Part shown: piece by piece, positions 8,458-14,918 of the stretch
Layout of the letters: each line of letters opens with the position of its first letter
Position numbering within the stretch: position 1 is the stretch's first letter
Source: Fluviicola sp.
Lineage (GTDB): Bacteria > Bacteroidota > Bacteroidia > Flavobacteriales_D > Crocinitomicaceae
Direction of reading: 5' to 3'
DNA: 64,000 bases
Assembly: GCA_002734085.1 (NCBI GenBank)
Contig: NVXV01000003.1
Location: 1 to 64,000 of the forward strand
Notes under the pieces: generated by a model
The model's input: only the letters and a program-made list of their open reading frames with translations
Databases searched by the model: none
What the model was told of the DNA's origin: nothing
Made by a program: the position numbers and the translations under genes

Positions 8458-8489
8458 CAAATATACAACACTTTATCTGTTATTCCAAA
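8458..8489 (-). promoter_or_regulatory. Full Bacteroidota promoter (TTTG-N20-TATATTTG)
   Basis: On the minus strand TTTG (8486-8489) and TATATTTG (8458-8465) are spaced by 20 nt, matching the -33/-7 consensus. The -33 half lies within the last codons of the sensor kinase gene. It would drive the small lipoprotein. Confidence 0.75.
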
Positions 8490-11395
8490 TATTGTTTGAT
8501 GATTTTGAATGTAACGAGCGTTCCATTGATTGAACTGTCACTTTCATTGATTTGAACGGGGCCAATCATTTCTATAGATCTTGCAGATATCTTCTGTAGA
8601 AGCTCAATTCGCCCTTTAGTAATCAGCATACCCTGCGATTCATGATCGCCAGTGACTTCTTTTTTACTTTTAACAGAATTTTCTATTCCTACCCCATTAT
8701 CCCTTATTTCGATTCTAATATGGTCTAAATGATCCGTAATTGTGATTTTAATCTCCCCTTTTCTTTCTTTTAGAGGTAAAATACCGTGTATGATACTATT
8801 TTCAACAAAAGGTTGAAGAAACATCGCAGGAACTTTCAACATCTCCACCTCAACATGCTCACCTATCTCTAAACGATAGCTAAACTTCTCATTGAACCTC
8901 ATGGTCTCTAGTTCCAAATAAAGCTCTAGACGTTCTAATTCATCGTTTAATGGAACCATCCCATTTTCCTGATGAGAACTATCTAAGTTCTTTCGAATTA
9001 ATTTTGCAAATCGCGATAAGTATTTATTTGCAGACTTCTTATCTGAAGAATTAATGTAGTATTGAATAGAGTTCAAAGCATTAAATATGAAATGCCTATT
9101 CATACTTGCGTTGAGCGATTGTTGTTCCAGTCGAGTCAATTTATTTTGAAACTCTAATTTCAATCTGTAATTTTTCCTATCTAACCTTTGAACTCGGATG
9201 CGATCCAAAAACACGACTACTAGAGTAAGTAAAATGAAACAGATCAAATAAAACCACCAAGTACGGTAAAAAGGAGGCAGTACTTCAAAAGACATTTGAT
9301 AAATTTCAGAATCTACACCTTGGGAAGTAGTAGCTTTAAACATTAAGGTATAGACACCTGGAGATAAATTAGTAAAACTCAACCTAGGGTTATTTGAGGG
9401 TGGCGACCAATCTTCGGAAAACCCTTCTAGAAAATAACTATAACTTAACCCATTAGGATTACTCAAATAAATACCGTCAAAATCGAAGGAAATATTGTTA
9501 TTCTTGTATTCTATTCGAAAATCTTCTTTTACGTTTTTATTGATATTTTTAATTTTTTTATCACTCAGTTTGTTAAAGTTGATTTCAATATCAGTTAAAT
9601 GAATTTTAGGAGGAATATTGTAAAAAAGATTATTCCTTTGTTCTAAATTCATTTTCATCAAACCCGCAGCTGTTCCAAACCACAAGTAATTATTATTATC
9701 CAAATAACTCGAGTTAAGGTTTGTTTCTAAATCAACCAAACCAGCATTAATATCATAGTGCTTCCAATGTTTTCTATCAAAACTTATTTCATACAGCCCA
9801 TTATTGGTTCCAATAAACATGACTGAATCTACTTTTTTAATAAAATTGATATAATCAGCGCCACCATTTTCTTCAAGAACATAGTTCGATAATTCTCCAT
9901 TTTTTTCAATGTATAAGCCGTTCTCTGTTCCTACCCATATCGAATTATCGTTGTCTAATTCAATACAGTTAATACCCGCATCGAAAGTCTGGACGAGCTT
10001 TACCGCGTTATTATATATTTTATAAATACCATTTTGAGCAGCAAAAATCAAGGTGTCTTCAATCTCAATAAAATCACGAACATTATTTAATGATTTAGCT
10101 TCACTATTTAAAGGTGAAAACGTTGCTGTTTTCTTATTAAATACTACTGTTCCTTCAGAGGTACCAACAATGATGAGTCCGTTTTTTGTTCTTTTTAGTC
10201 CTTTTATTCGATTGGAAGGCAATCCTTGTTCCTCATAATAACTTGTCCAAGTTTTGTAGTCGTAAACGTGAAGTCCAAAATTACTACCAAACAAAATCAT
10301 ATCTTTTGTCTGCTCCATACTCCAAACAACACTTAGAACATACGGTTCTTTTGAAACTTTCCCATCATTATCAATTGTGCAAATACCTTTGTCTAATGTT
10401 GATAGCCACAACTTGTCGTTTTTATCTTTTAGCATTGATATGACTAAATCACTGGGTAAATTACTTTTTTCATTAAAATGGGTAAAAACATCTCCAGTAA
10501 ACTTCAACAAGCCTTTCCCTCCTGTACCAAACCAAATATTTCTTTCCCTGTCTTCAAAAACGATATTAATATCATTGATTGGTAAACCTGTCTGCTCATA
10601 AAACCTAATTGCCTTTTGTCCTTTTATTAATGTTACTCCATTTTTTGAATTTAACCAATAATCTCCATGGTTATCAATAGTCACGTTCCTATAGGGATCA
10701 TTTTCATCTCGATGAATTACTTTAACTTCTTTTGTTAGAAAAGAAAAACTCATGAGAATACCATCATACGAAGTAAAAACTATCTCATCTCCTTTAGCAA
10801 TAACAGAGGAATAAGAACCCTCTGGTATCCCTTTGACAGACTTAAACTTGGTTGTGTATTCAATTATTCCATTTTTTGTGGCTAGGAAAAGTGAGTTCGA
10901 ATGCTTTTCAAGACTACGAATTCTTTCAGGACTATCTTTGACATAAGACAATGAATTACTTTTCTTATCCAGTACAAAAAGTCCAGAACCATTGGTAGCA
11001 ATAAAAATCTTTCCATTGTGAAGCTGAATGTCTGTAACGTTTCGTGAAGTAACGTTTGCTGGAAAATTAATTGGACAAAAACTGTCGATAGCACATTGAT
11101 ACGAAATTCCTTTATCATGTCCAACGTAAAGCTGTTCTTCGATTATCTCTACGTGTGTAATTCGATTATTTAATAGACCATCACTCTTACCATAAGAAAT
11201 AAATTTTTTCCCATCAAATTTTGCTAATCCACCAAGTGTACCGAGCCACAAATAACCATCGTTATCTTGAATAATCGTATTCACTTGTGATTGAGGTAGA
11301 CCTTCCGAAGTACTGTAATTAATGAAAGCATACCGCTGAGAAAAGACCGAAGAAGTAAACAAGAACAGTGTTACAAACAACAGCAATTTTATCAT
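8480..11395 (-). CDS. Two-component sensor: beta-propeller / Y_Y_Y / LytS-type histidine kinase
   Basis: A 971-residue inner-membrane sensor with a large periplasmic part. Order: signal peptide (1-19), about 14 two-component-regulator propeller blades (repeats such as GYLWLGTLGGLAKFDG and NIWFGTGGKGLLKFTG), a Y_Y_Y immunoglobulin-like domain (about 640-715), one membrane helix (about 718-738), then a LytS-family kinase. The phosphoacceptor region is NRHFIFNALNSIQ with His768, where the usual Pro before His is Arg. The ATP site has LQPFVENS and RDNGVGI. There is no fused receiver or DNA-binding domain, unlike hybrid polysaccharide sensors. Its ATG overlaps the regulator stop (ATGA), so the two are co-translated. 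The ligand is unknown; no polysaccharide-utilisation locus is nearby. Confidence 0.95.
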   Translation of the reverse strand: MIKLLLFVTLFLFTSSVFSQRYAFINYSTSEGLPQSQVNTIIQDNDGYLWLGTLGGLAKFDGKKFISYGKSDGLLNNRITHVEIIEEQLYVGHDKGISYQCAIDSFCPINFPANVTSRNVTDIQLHNGKIFIATNGSGLFVLDKKSNSLSYVKDSPERIRSLEKHSNSLFLATKNGIIEYTTKFKSVKGIPEGSYSSVIAKGDEIVFTSYDGILMSFSFLTKEVKVIHRDENDPYRNVTIDNHGDYWLNSKNGVTLIKGQKAIRFYEQTGLPINDINIVFEDRERNIWFGTGGKGLLKFTGDVFTHFNEKSNLPSDLVISMLKDKNDKLWLSTLDKGICTIDNDGKVSKEPYVLSVVWSMEQTKDMILFGSNFGLHVYDYKTWTSYYEEQGLPSNRIKGLKRTKNGLIIVGTSEGTVVFNKKTATFSPLNSEAKSLNNVRDFIEIEDTLIFAAQNGIYKIYNNAVKLVQTFDAGINCIELDNDNSIWVGTENGLYIEKNGELSNYVLEENGGADYINFIKKVDSVMFIGTNNGLYEISFDRKHWKHYDINAGLVDLETNLNSSYLDNNNYLWFGTAAGLMKMNLEQRNNLFYNIPPKIHLTDIEINFNKLSDKKIKNINKNVKEDFRIEYKNNNISFDFDGIYLSNPNGLSYSYFLEGFSEDWSPPSNNPRLSFTNLSPGVYTLMFKATTSQGVDSEIYQMSFEVLPPFYRTWWFYLICFILLTLVVVFLDRIRVQRLDRKNYRLKLEFQNKLTRLEQQSLNASMNRHFIFNALNSIQYYINSSDKKSANKYLSRFAKLIRKNLDSSHQENGMVPLNDELERLELYLELETMRFNEKFSYRLEIGEHVEVEMLKVPAMFLQPFVENSIIHGILPLKERKGEIKITITDHLDHIRIEIRDNGVGIENSVKSKKEVTGDHESQGMLITKGRIELLQKISARSIEMIGPVQINESDSSINGTLVTFKIIKQYLE

Positions 11396-12171
11396 AATGT
11401 ACCTTTTACGGTTTTCAAAAATGTACTTACTCGATTTCTTGCAACGGGTAATTGAACATCATTTTTCAGAACAATAATATGCCCATCTTCACTGAGATAT
11501 TCTTTTATCATATCCATATTAATAATGTATGATTTGTGAACTCTGTAAAACCTCTTTTCGTCTAGAATCTCTTCATAAACTTTCAACGTTCGGGTGTCCA
11601 AATACCGTGTTCCATCTTTAAAATATATCATTGTACAGTTTCCACTAGCCTCCAAATATGCAATAGTGTCTTCTTCTACAATCTTAACGCCTTTGGTATG
11701 AGAGATTGCTATTCGATTTGTTTCTTTATTTCTCAATAAACGGTCTGCTAAGTTTTGTAAAGAGTTAAAGTAAGCCTCATAATTACCAGGGTTTTGAGTA
11801 AATGTTTCTTTTGTAGCTATCAACTTATCTACAGCTGATCTCAAATCTTCGTCATCTATTGGCTTCAATAAGTAATGGGCTGCATTGGCTTGAAAGGCTC
11901 GTATTGCATAATCTTTAAATGCTGTTACGAAAACAACCAAAAAATTGCGGTTTTCTAAACTTTCAAGTAATTCAAACCCTTCTGATCCACTAGGCATTCT
12001 TATGTCGAGAAATACAACATCTGGATTCGAACTCTCTATAATACTTTTCGCTTCTTCTTTATCACTTGCTTCACCTATAACATCAATCTCTGGACAGTAA
12101 GTCTCTAGCATCATGATTAGGTTTTTTCTTGCCAAATCTTCGTCGTCTACAATAACTGCTCGTAAGTTCAT
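11392..12171 (-). CDS. LytTR-family response regulator
   Basis: A 259-residue regulator. The receiver domain has acidic residues VDDED near the N-terminus, phosphoacceptor Asp56 in DVVFLDIRMP, and the late Lys in LLKPID. A LytTR DNA-binding domain (about 155-259) includes the characteristic RFYRVHKSYIINMDMI. The start is ATG at 12171, because the longer frame to 12231 adds 20 residues ahead of a canonical receiver. It shares a 4-bp overlap with the sensor gene and must be its partner. Target genes cannot be inferred with certainty; the divergent region at 12.3-12.9 kb is an obvious candidate. Confidence 0.95.
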   Translation of the reverse strand: MNLRAVIVDDEDLARKNLIMMLETYCPEIDVIGEASDKEEAKSIIESSNPDVVFLDIRMPSGSEGFELLESLENRNFLVVFVTAFKDYAIRAFQANAAHYLLKPIDDEDLRSAVDKLIATKETFTQNPGNYEAYFNSLQNLADRLLRNKETNRIAISHTKGVKIVEEDTIAYLEASGNCTMIYFKDGTRYLDTRTLKVYEEILDEKRFYRVHKSYIINMDMIKEYLSEDGHIIVLKNDVQLPVARNRVSTFLKTVKGTL

Positions 12172-12378: not shown

Positions 12379-12441
12379 ATGGAAAATGATACTACAATTT
12401 TAACAAATACTGTATGGATCTTTAATGATAACGGAAACTAG
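12379..12441 (+). CDS. Possible 20-codon small ORF or leader peptide
   Basis: ATG 12379 to TAG 12439-12441 encodes MENDTTILTNTVWIFNDNGN. It is preceded by a -7 box and its last codons form the left arm of a strong terminator (12430-12458). This suggests a discrete RNA of about 110 nt carrying either a small peptide or a regulatory leader. There is no signal peptide and no recognised family. The coding claim is weak; the promoter-plus-terminator arrangement is the firmer observation. Confidence 0.35.
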   Translation: MENDTTILTNTVWIFNDNGN

Positions 12442-12458
12442 TTTTCCGTTATTTTTTT
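12430..12458 (+). terminator. Rho-independent terminator
   Basis: AACGGAAA (12430-12437) pairs with TTTCCGTT (12443-12450) around a 5-nt loop, followed by A and seven T. It closes the short unit starting near 12345 and lies about 140 bp before the next plus-strand gene. Confidence 0.85.
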
Positions 12459-12582
12459 AATCTTTTGTTAATTTACTATGTACGCCTAGCTTATTGAAGG
12501 ATGAATTTCCCCGTTTAATCTTTTCAAAACATGGTTTTGGCTAAAATAATATAGATTAAAAACCTATTCACTTTTCATTGTT

Positions 12583-12590
12583 TACATTTG
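12583..12590 (+). promoter_or_regulatory. Bacteroidota -7 element immediately before an ATG
   Basis: TACATTTG matches TAnnTTTG exactly and ends only 6 nt before the ATG at 12597. Transcription would start within a few nt of the start codon, implying a leaderless or near-leaderless mRNA. Confidence 0.6.
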
Positions 12591-12596
12591 ACTTCG

Positions 12597-12869
12597 ATGA
12601 ATTCAGATACAAACAAAATATTGCTCTCTTCTCAGGCTAATTCTGAAACAGCTCCAGTTGTTCAGTTATACGACTCAATATTAGAGTGTTCATTCAAATG
12701 TGAAGGTGAGTATCAATACGCTATTTCAACTGAAAATGGGTCTATCCTACTCAAAGGAGAGTTTCTTAATGGATTTCGTTTAGACATTAGTGATATTGGA
12801 CCGGGTTTTTACAAACTTGTACTCTTCAATGCTCTAAAGCGTCACGTCTATTCTTTTAGAATCAAATAA
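12597..12869 (+). CDS. Small protein resembling a free-standing T9SS type A C-terminal domain
   Basis: A 90-residue protein. From about residue 22 the pattern is beta-rich: YQYAISTENGSILLKGEF, then LDISDIGPGFYKLVLFN, ending HVYSFRIK. This follows the layout of type A sorting domains (strand, turn with G, then idls-l-xGxYxL, then a basic end). It lacks the usual PNP motif, a signal peptide and any cargo domain. The start is ATG 12597; a TTG nine bp upstream overlaps the promoter. Its stop overlaps the convergent hydrolase by 8 bp. It may be a cytoplasmic decoy, a regulator or a relic of a larger cargo gene. The family call is my pattern match and not certain. Confidence 0.65.
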   Translation: MNSDTNKILLSSQANSETAPVVQLYDSILECSFKCEGEYQYAISTENGSILLKGEFLNGFRLDISDIGPGFYKLVLFNALKRHVYSFRIK

Positions 12870-13626
12870 AATTTACTATTTGTTCAATTACCTCTAATTC
12901 TGATTCATGATGTGCCATGTGTCCGGCATCTTCAACCAAATAATACACATTCCCATACTTTCTTGTAAATTCTTCCATCTCATTAAAAGAAATAAGGTGA
13001 TCATACCTTCCTTGAATCACTAAGCAGTCGCGTTTTAATTCCTTCATTATTTCCATAGCATCTTTTCTATCACGCATAGCAATGAGGGATTGAATAATGG
13101 CAACTTCAGTCATTTTAGTTGCTTCTCTAAGTTGTATTTGAACCTCCTTTTTATACTTCAAAGGGTTGCGATAAAGATTTGGGATAGCCTCGTTGAGAAA
13201 TAACAACTTATTGTGATCAACAATGTTCACAACGCGCGTTCGTTCCTTTTTCTTAGGTTCTGAATCACTCCAGGGGTGGGAATTTAGCAACACAACCTTT
13301 TCAATTGTATTTTTATTATCTATCGTTTTTAAATCTAACGCTACATACCCTCCAAGTGAATGACCAACAATTGAAAAATTTCCGATTGAAAGCGTTTTTA
13401 GTACTTCATTGACATCTTCAGACATATCCCTGATTGTCATCTCTTCACCATAAGGATAAAAGGGTGAGTCTCCATGACCTGGAAGTTCGATTAGAATAGC
13501 CTTAACTCCTTTGAGTTTTGGAACGACAGATTCCCACATGGTATTACTTTCTAGAAAACCATGTAAAAAAACAACAGGGTAACCTTCACCGATTACCCTG
13601 TGATTCAATTTTATTCTTGTTTTCAT
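12862..13626 (-). CDS. Alpha/beta-fold hydrolase
   Basis: A 254-residue cytoplasmic hydrolase. The oxyanion motif is FLHGFLES, the nucleophile elbow GHSLGG (Ser90), the acid probably Asp in QGRYDHLIS, and the catalytic His in DAGHMAHHE. Length and order fit small esterase or peroxidase-like members. The ATG shares its first base with the stop of the aminopeptidase gene (TAATG), so the pair is translationally coupled. Substrate unknown. Confidence 0.92.
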   Translation of the reverse strand: MKTRIKLNHRVIGEGYPVVFLHGFLESNTMWESVVPKLKGVKAILIELPGHGDSPFYPYGEEMTIRDMSEDVNEVLKTLSIGNFSIVGHSLGGYVALDLKTIDNKNTIEKVVLLNSHPWSDSEPKKKERTRVVNIVDHNKLLFLNEAIPNLYRNPLKYKKEVQIQLREATKMTEVAIIQSLIAMRDRKDAMEIMKELKRDCLVIQGRYDHLISFNEMEEFTRKYGNVYYLVEDAGHMAHHESELEVIEQIVNFI

Positions 13627-14918
13627 TAGCTATTCATAATGTCTTCTATCTCTTCAATTTCAATTGGAATACCAGACATCATATTGAAAGGACTTTTACC
13701 ATCTCTAATAATTAAATCATCCTCTAAACGAATTCCAAGATTCTCTTCAGGAATATAAATTCCAGGTTCACAAGTGAAAACCATACCTGCTTCGATCGGC
13801 TTGTGGTACAATCCAGAATCATGTGTATCAAGACCGATGAAATGAGACGTTCCGTGCATAAAGAATTTCTTATATGCTGGCCAATCTGGATTTTGGTTTT
13901 TAAGATCTGTTCGATCTAACAATTTCAATTTTACGAGTTCCTCTTCCATTAGCTTACCAACTTCTTTATGATATTCTGGAATCAAAGTTCCTGGAACTAG
14001 TAATTTTTCAGCTTCTTTTTTCACATGAAGAACAGAGTTATAAACTTCCTTTTGTCGCTCAGTGTACCTTCCACTTACTGGAATTGCCCGTGTTTGATCA
14101 GATGCATAGTTTGCATATTCAGCACCGAAATCCATAAGAATTACTTCCCCATCTTTACATTCAGCTCGGTTTTCGATATAATGTAAGACACATGCGTTCT
14201 TTCCAGAAGCAATAATCGGTGTATATGCAAATCCTTTCGAACGATTTCGCACAAATTCATGAATTATCTCTGCTTCAATCTCGTGTTCCCATACACCAGG
14301 TTTCACAAATTTTAAAACGCGCTTGTAAGCACCTTCTGTGATATTACATGCTTTTTGCATCAAGTCGATTTCAATATCTTCTTTCACACTTCTGATGGCA
14401 TGTAAAATCGGTGCACTTTTGTGTACTTGATGAGCGGGATGATTTCGTTTACACTTTTTAATAAAACGATCCTCACGTGTTTCCACCTCTGTGTTTGCTC
14501 TTAAATGCTCATTGGTATTAAAATAAATACCTTCTGCCTCAGCCATGAGTTGTTTAAAAATTGATTCAAATTGATTCAACCAGTAAACGGTTTTAACACC
14601 AGTAGTTTCAAAAGCCGCTTCTTTGTCAAGCTTTTCTCCCTCCCATACTGCAATGTGTTCGTTCGTTTCTCTTAAAAACAAGACTTCTCTATGCTTTGGG
14701 TCTGAAGCATCTGGAAATAACACCAAAATACTTTCCTCCTGATCTACACCCGAAAGGTAAAACATATCCCTATGTTGTTGGAAAGGAATTGTACTATCAG
14801 CACTAATTGGATAAATGTCGTTTGAATTAAATACCGCCAATGTCTTAGCTTTCATCTTTTGCATAAACTTTGTGCGATTTCTTTCGAATAGTCTTTTGTC
14901 AATACGTTCGTATTTCAT
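13626..14918 (-). CDS. pepP: Xaa-Pro aminopeptidase (M24B)
   Basis: A 430-residue enzyme that removes N-terminal residues preceding proline. The N-terminal domain opens MKYERIDKRLFERNRTKFM, with QHRDMFYLSGVDQEESILVL typical of aminopeptidase P. The dinuclear metal ligands lie in MDFGAEYANYASDQTR (two Asp), HGTSHFIGLDTHD (His), CEPGIYIPEENLGIRLEDD (two Glu). The start at ATG 14918 gives the usual length; the longer frame to 15002 adds 28 basic residues not typical of the family. First gene of a two-gene operon with the alpha/beta hydrolase. Confidence 0.94.
   Translation of the reverse strand: MKYERIDKRLFERNRTKFMQKMKAKTLAVFNSNDIYPISADSTIPFQQHRDMFYLSGVDQEESILVLFPDASDPKHREVLFLRETNEHIAVWEGEKLDKEAAFETTGVKTVYWLNQFESIFKQLMAEAEGIYFNTNEHLRANTEVETREDRFIKKCKRNHPAHQVHKSAPILHAIRSVKEDIEIDLMQKACNITEGAYKRVLKFVKPGVWEHEIEAEIIHEFVRNRSKGFAYTPIIASGKNACVLHYIENRAECKDGEVILMDFGAEYANYASDQTRAIPVSGRYTERQKEVYNSVLHVKKEAEKLLVPGTLIPEYHKEVGKLMEEELVKLKLLDRTDLKNQNPDWPAYKKFFMHGTSHFIGLDTHDSGLYHKPIEAGMVFTCEPGIYIPEENLGIRLEDDLIIRDGKSPFNMMSGIPIEIEEIEDIMNS

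Follow-up and report, generated by a model that had tools for sequence, protein, structure and literature searches.

A class-wide family of small, signal-less proteins that probably share the type A T9SS sorting-domain fold, and their genomic surroundings

What does a protein do that resembles the sorting tail of a T9SS cargo but carries no cargo and no signal peptide? The question is raised by a small gene in a 64,000-nucleotide stretch of a Fluviicola sp. contig, which is referred to here as the window. The type A sorting domain has been described as an export signal on cargo that is exported by Sec (PMC10202324, in the sections available). A sequence-only reading of the window had proposed that this gene encodes such a C-terminal domain (CTD) by itself, and that the product may regulate, act as a decoy or be a relic. 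The features needed to follow the argument are listed below.

8480..11395, - strand: sensor kinase gene with Reg_prop, Y_Y_Y and His_kinase domains, the likely partner of the LytTR regulator
11392..12171, - strand: LytTR response regulator gene, divergent (Response_reg 1.1e-21, LytTR 3.1e-17)
12379-12441, + strand: tiny ORF, 20 aa, between the LytTR regulator gene and the CTD-fold gene
12583..12590, + strand: TACATTTG, a match to TAnnTTTG that starts 14 nt before the ATG
12597..12869, + strand: free-standing CTD-fold protein, 90 aa, without signal peptide or PNP motif
12862..13626, - strand: alpha/beta hydrolase gene, convergent (Abhydrolase_1 2.8e-22)
13626..14918, - strand: ORF, presumably an aminopeptidase P gene, a recurrent neighbour

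The ORF at 12597-12869 runs from ATG to TAA through 90 codons, and its product ends in FRIK, with lysine as the final residue. Upstream of the ATG lie 14 further open codons, with TTG at 12588 as the sole alternative start. The motif TAnnTTTG, which is taken here to be the Bacteroidota -7 box, occurs within 40 nt of the ATG in all five genus members tested and in none of four members of other genera. Mononucleotide shuffles yield it in 1-5% per genus sequence. In the genus, the CTD-fold gene therefore seems to have its own promoter there.

Extent of the family and its kinship with cargo tails

Searched alone, the window protein gave no match in Pfam (at E 1) or in NCBIfam (at E 10), so the case for it rests on its relatives. 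Among 59 relatives, a search returned free-standing homologues from the genus, with identities of 55, 42, 30 and 33%, as well as from three other genera; many cargo tails also matched, weakly. With a profile of seven homologues, ten small ORFs including the window's were recovered (E 1.4e-36 to 7.4e-10) when 240 family genomes were searched, which argues against a chance ORF; one of the ten, in G020, has an in-frame stop. Cargo tails follow from E 1.4e-8. A 31-member profile found a small ORF in 30 of 176 genomes of the order at E 2.3e-25 to 3.9e-12, as counted by reading the rows and with 8 of the 30 already in the profile. The open frames of these small ORFs span 84-142 codons, and the first longer ORF appears at 3.2e-12, the two sets just touching. 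When the expanded profile was run against 395 genomes of the class, further small ORFs were among the matches listed; 20 small-ORF loci were taken from them, leaving out the short-frame rows G509, G473, G677, G700 and G643. The protein had been read as a lone oddity, with a look for orthologues at the same locus advised. Relatives were indeed found, at a recurrent locus, and the oddity is instead one of a family: small free-standing members occupy at least 54 loci in 13 families of the class, with lengths of 74-134 aa from the starts as called in the analysis. One candidate for a second small homologue (G001:C10) was discarded as really the tail of a longer frame broken by one stop.

Thirty-one members were aligned. 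Among the 54 loci, L227 (in G558) was omitted for its unclear start and the G020 copy for its stop. The members have in common a pattern of about [FY]D[IL]CDxNGxIxKxG...Y..L.I.DG[DE], which is looser in the window's family. The profile search advised from the sequence bore fruit through these relatives and failed for the window protein alone: at E <=1, Por_Secre_tail (PF18962) matches 17 of the 31 members (best 2.6e-8) and TIGR04183 matches 15 (best 1.1e-9). DUF3244 (PF11589) matches five members at the same threshold, weakly (best 2.3e-5). Ten members were also scanned singly; one (L222) scored above the curated cut-offs and nine were below the Pfam cut-off or unmatched, so most members can be expected to be called hypothetical in annotation.

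Direct comparison was made with 29 cargo tails cut from the window's own genome and picked for an NP motif near their start. In HHalign, the family aligned with these tails at a probability of 97.1 (E 7.8e-11), while nine members from family f1 alone reached 95.1 and the f1 members against 19 class members reached 98.1; controls, one reversed and eight column-shuffled, stayed at or below 0.4. Scored with a model of the 29 tails, 18 of the 31 members exceed the best of 930 shuffled sequences (13.7 bits). The window member reaches 7.6 bits, below that mark, and none of its own 30 shuffles reaches 7.6. Matches to cargo were in register: both ends are readable in 29 of 32 weakly matching cargo loci, and in these a long ORF continues for 0-16 residues past the match before its stop. 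Solved structures gave a similar picture: a profile search with the 31 members returned two chains at E <0.001. One is a lipase (2e-7) and the other an uncharacterised protein (4.6e-5), and in each the match falls close to the C-terminus, where a sorting tail would sit. These sequence comparisons support probable homology with sorting domains by way of the family and not by way of the single window sequence.

How do the members stand apart from cargo tails? A tree built from the 31 members together with 60 cargo tails places all members in a single group (support 92/94; recovered in 94% of bootstrap trees), a result that is based on 83 columns with an unsettled bootstrap and on members collected with earlier members' profiles, which favours grouping. 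Two loci, L102 and L048, gave no usable cargo tail. PNP, presumably motif A at the start of the sorting domain, is absent from 31 of 31 members, a comparison that is circular against the 29 tails because these were chosen for an NP motif. As to the terminal lysines of motif E, lysine is found in the last six residues of 15 of the 31 members versus 28 of the 29 cargo tails, and G-x-Y in 17 of the 31 members.

The window protein was modelled with AlphaFold2 from three sequences as all beta (pLDDT 85.5, pTM 0.77), with seven strands from residue 21 onward (21-25, 28-33, 38-45, 50-57, 61-63, 70-77 and 82-89). The strands and the profile alignment (residues 27-89) fit the sorting-domain layout that had been read from the sequence, including LDIS-IG-GFYKL, and the predicted fold is the Ig-like sandwich that such a domain should have. 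The outcome named beforehand as refuting that reading, a lack of profile matches together with some other fold, did not arise, even though the window protein has no profile match of its own. Foldseek with the predicted model gave no match at E <=0.001. In VIA-align the top three matches are DUF3244 structures (Z 12.4, 10.2 and 9.9), the first of them 3d33_B (85 residues aligned, 1.9 A). The CTDs of NucA (9.1), mirolase (8.6), RemA (8.4), RemZ (8.2), PorZ (8.0) and RgpB (7.5) align over 68-74 residues, where a Z below about 8 may mean a common arrangement alone. FetP, which is not a sorting domain, ranks among these CTDs with Z 8.2 and 8.1, and other Ig-like domains score about 7. In the model, the fold class is clearly an Ig-like sandwich, and structure alone makes no choice between CTD and DUF3244. 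DUF3244 (PDB 3d33, 4g5a and 3sd2) thus provides the best structural matches of the model and weak matches to 5 of the 31 members, although the window member has no PF11589 match at E 1. The solved DUF3244 chains are small (86-99 residues) and belong to Bacteroides and Phocaeicola proteins. DUF3244 proteins, by contrast, are known as exported proteins.

Taken as a whole, this is very probably an old, conserved family of free-standing proteins with the type A T9SS sorting-domain fold. It resembles the type A domain in its Ig-like sandwich, its strand pattern, its frequent G-x-Y and the profile-profile match, but it is free-standing, lacks signal peptide, cargo and PNP, has fewer terminal lysines, and has its own tree branch and a recurrent genome address. 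The fold and the sorting-domain family are already known; what is apparently undescribed is a free-standing branch without signal peptide that spans the class and has an address of its own. In literature searches judged from titles and the openings of abstracts, no free-standing signal-less sorting-domain proteins and no such peptide as the tiny ORF encodes were recognised, and the standalone CTD in PMC4804311 is, in the portion of that paper available, a recombinant one. As a side observation, a Por_Secre_tail match at G000:C26:29186-29398 in the window genome (E 1.1e-10) sits in an open frame just 90 codons long.

The genomic address and a tiny ORF

Neighbours were counted within a radius of 1.5 kb at E 1e-6 around the 54 member loci, the ORF of L267 being chosen by hand, and 32 cargo-tail loci were treated alike; some flanks end at contig ends, and the 54 loci include close relatives and are therefore not independent. 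A gene for aminopeptidase P, the hydrolase or the LytTR regulator lies within this radius at 45 of the 54 loci, the remaining nine having none. By comparison, the control cargo-tail loci had any of the three at 0 of 32 and a kinase match at 2 of 32. The aminopeptidase P gene occurs at 27 of the 54 loci and the hydrolase gene at 23, both always convergent, with the ends of the hydrolase gene -19 to +67 nt from those of the family member; in the window, the two 3' ends overlap by 8 bp. The LytTR regulator is present at 26 loci, at 25 of them divergent and 72-483 nt away (24 at E 1e-8). An IspG gene was found near a family member at four loci, and a cargo gene close by at several loci of the class. 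The regulator itself is strongly conserved: its other 29 listed matches, from families f1, f10 and f11 down to G044, have 60-86% identity.

Half of the ten genomes in the window's genus, five in all, carry the CTD-fold gene, adjoining the hydrolase. In G002-G006, the regulator and hydrolase are present and no CTD-fold gene was detected between them. In G007, no orthologue of the LytTR regulator was found at E 1e-60, and the CTD-fold gene is kept by the hydrolase. By eye, the members in genus g12 (L056, L057) lie just after a sensor kinase gene, with a response regulator of another type upstream.

The sequence-only reading had placed the CTD-fold gene divergent from a LytTR two-component pair. 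The divergence holds, but the picture was incomplete, as a conserved tiny ORF sits between the regulator and the CTD-fold gene. This ORF (12379-12441) ends in W[IV]FNDNGN-stop, and its relatives are about 17-30 aa long with a variable start. Searched as a DNA pattern with at most one mismatch, the ending gave 83 matches in 82 of 240 family genomes and in 15 of 24 genera, and the reversed pattern gave no match in the 240 family genomes. The non-Trp codons of the ending vary synonymously, and all three stop codons are used. Of 30 regulator loci inspected, 21 have an ORF divergent from the regulator that carries this ending or one close to it (e.g. IWIFIDCGG); of the other nine loci, one is cut by a contig end and two were unreadable with the filter used. 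The tiny-ORF loci include L103-L108 and L163-L186. In genus g1, the nine members with the regulator have the tiny ORF, and G007 shows neither. The tiny ORF is a separate gene, since it also occurs without a CTD-like gene. It is conceivable that it is a precursor-peptide or leader-peptide gene. The ending string had no literature match. Rfam gave a single match on the window stretch, to DapZ, below threshold (22.9 bits versus 56) and on the other strand, which was set aside as chance. By eye, an attenuator- or terminator-like hairpin followed by a T run (12430-12459, + strand) overlaps the stop of the tiny ORF and the codons just before it; none was seen in others such as G005 and G008, while L168, L185 and L186 likewise have hairpin and T run.

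Cellular location and possible roles

If the domain is an export signal in cargo, where does the free-standing protein reside? Scored by the most hydrophobic 10-residue stretch within their first 30 residues, the 31 members have a median of 0.81, and 30 of them score <=1.37. The exception, L187, scores 2.01 and has a doubtful start. By comparison, 11 of the cargo ORFs listed have a complete start, and 9 of these score >=1.94. A missed signal peptide in the window protein was considered and rejected: the open frame has 104 codons, TTG 12588 is the sole other start, and no signal-like stretch is present. The absence of signal peptide, cargo and PNP from the 90-aa protein, as first described, is borne out. 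A protein without a Sec signal would be expected to be cytosolic and not a T9SS substrate, and the family is, from its sequences, presumably cytosolic. Co-occurrence with T9SS provides no discrimination, as SprA_N is found in 383 of the 395 class genomes.

The best explanation overall, at a probability of roughly 0.45, is a sorting-domain-fold family that has been put to cytosolic use, its guessed role being that of an adaptor or modulator for the LytTR system. A sorting domain, or an ancestor shared by sorting domains and this family, may have been turned to a different use, leaving a small cytosolic binding module. The module could bind through sandwich faces like those that contact T9SS parts in cargo tails, and might act within the circuit that the divergent LytTR regulator forms with its sensor kinase. 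Exposed conserved motifs of cargo tails have been suggested to bind T9SS subunits (PMC10202324, as far as the available text goes). The missing PNP and the fewer terminal lysines are what would be expected had selection for T9SS contacts ceased. A regulatory adaptor is the first guess because the divergent LytTR regulator recurs. Is there a precedent for a CTD protein in signalling? In Porphyromonas gingivalis, the CTD protein PorA reportedly acts on a two-component system in control of T9SS genes (PMC7712824, in the portion of the paper available). As described there, PorA reaches the surface, has a FimH-like domain and works with PorXY, whereas the window's family has the tail-like domain alone, no signal peptide and a LytTR regulator.

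The LytTR-linked mechanism taken by itself is a guess and somewhat doubtful. At 29 of the 54 loci no divergent regulator lies within 1.5 kb; G007 retains the gene without a regulator orthologue (E 1e-60), and G002-G006 keep regulator and hydrolase with no such gene detected between them. The gene order may also be old synteny without function, as the enzyme genes occur beside the family members about as often as the regulator gene does. A bolder form of the idea is rather unlikely: a single-origin, class-wide export tag that has become a cytosolic signalling module with the LytTR system, possibly reporting T9SS cargo supply, with the peptide gene of about 20 aa alongside in the window's family. 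Should the family be unable to enter the Sec/T9SS route, the sorting-domain fold would have a second, intracellular life, and a Por_Secre_tail match alone would be an unsafe sign of secretion in annotation. The CTD-fold family would also provide a handle on a strongly conserved LytTR regulator.

The frequent enzyme neighbours suggest another partner. The protein could serve the alpha/beta hydrolase or aminopeptidase P as a small subunit or modulator, with the regulator merely a further neighbour. Convergent aminopeptidase P (27/54) and hydrolase genes (23/54, with closely spaced ends) fit this reading, as does the gene's persistence by the hydrolase where the regulator is not adjacent (G007, G081). 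Convergent genes are not co-transcribed, however, no hydrolase was found nearby in G740 and G601, and 9 of the 54 loci lack all three neighbours; an enzyme partner is unlikely.

Kinship with cargo tails in sequence and fold would equally suit a cytosolic decoy or chaperone buffer, which would mimic cargo tails, occupy the factors that hold unfolded cargo before Sec and so tune cargo entry. In favour of this role, the window genome has 133 Por_Secre_tail matches (129 over the cut-off), and a cargo gene is close by at several class loci. This role is nevertheless quite unlikely. Cargo is exported unfolded and has been proposed to fold in the periplasm (PMC10202324, in the sections available), so that a folded cytosolic mimic has no obvious target, and terminal lysines are fewer (15/31 versus 28/29).

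It is very improbable that the protein is nevertheless a product of the T9SS, exported along an unknown route or read from a miscalled start: the sorting-domain layout is kept and a lysine stands at the end, but the 104-codon frame leaves no room upstream for a signal peptide, and in 30 of 31 members no stretch within the first 30 residues exceeds 1.37 in hydrophobicity.

Selection on the gene was assessed among relatives. In six members from genus g79, dN/dS is below 1 for all 15 pairs (0.09-0.52). Comparison of the window member with its two nearest relatives gives pN/pS of 0.52-0.55, which says little because synonymous sites are near saturation. The relic offered in the sequence-only reading, a tail of a lost cargo gene left open by chance, is barely credible, for the patchy distribution (no gene detected in 5 of 10 genus genomes) and the truncated G020 copy are outweighed by purifying selection in all pairs of that one genus, by the grouping of the members as one family and by the recurrent address (45/54 versus 0/32 loci). 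In G020, the member (L057:8774-9016, - strand) has an in-frame TAA seven residues short of the end of its close relative in G103, and a loss may be in progress there.
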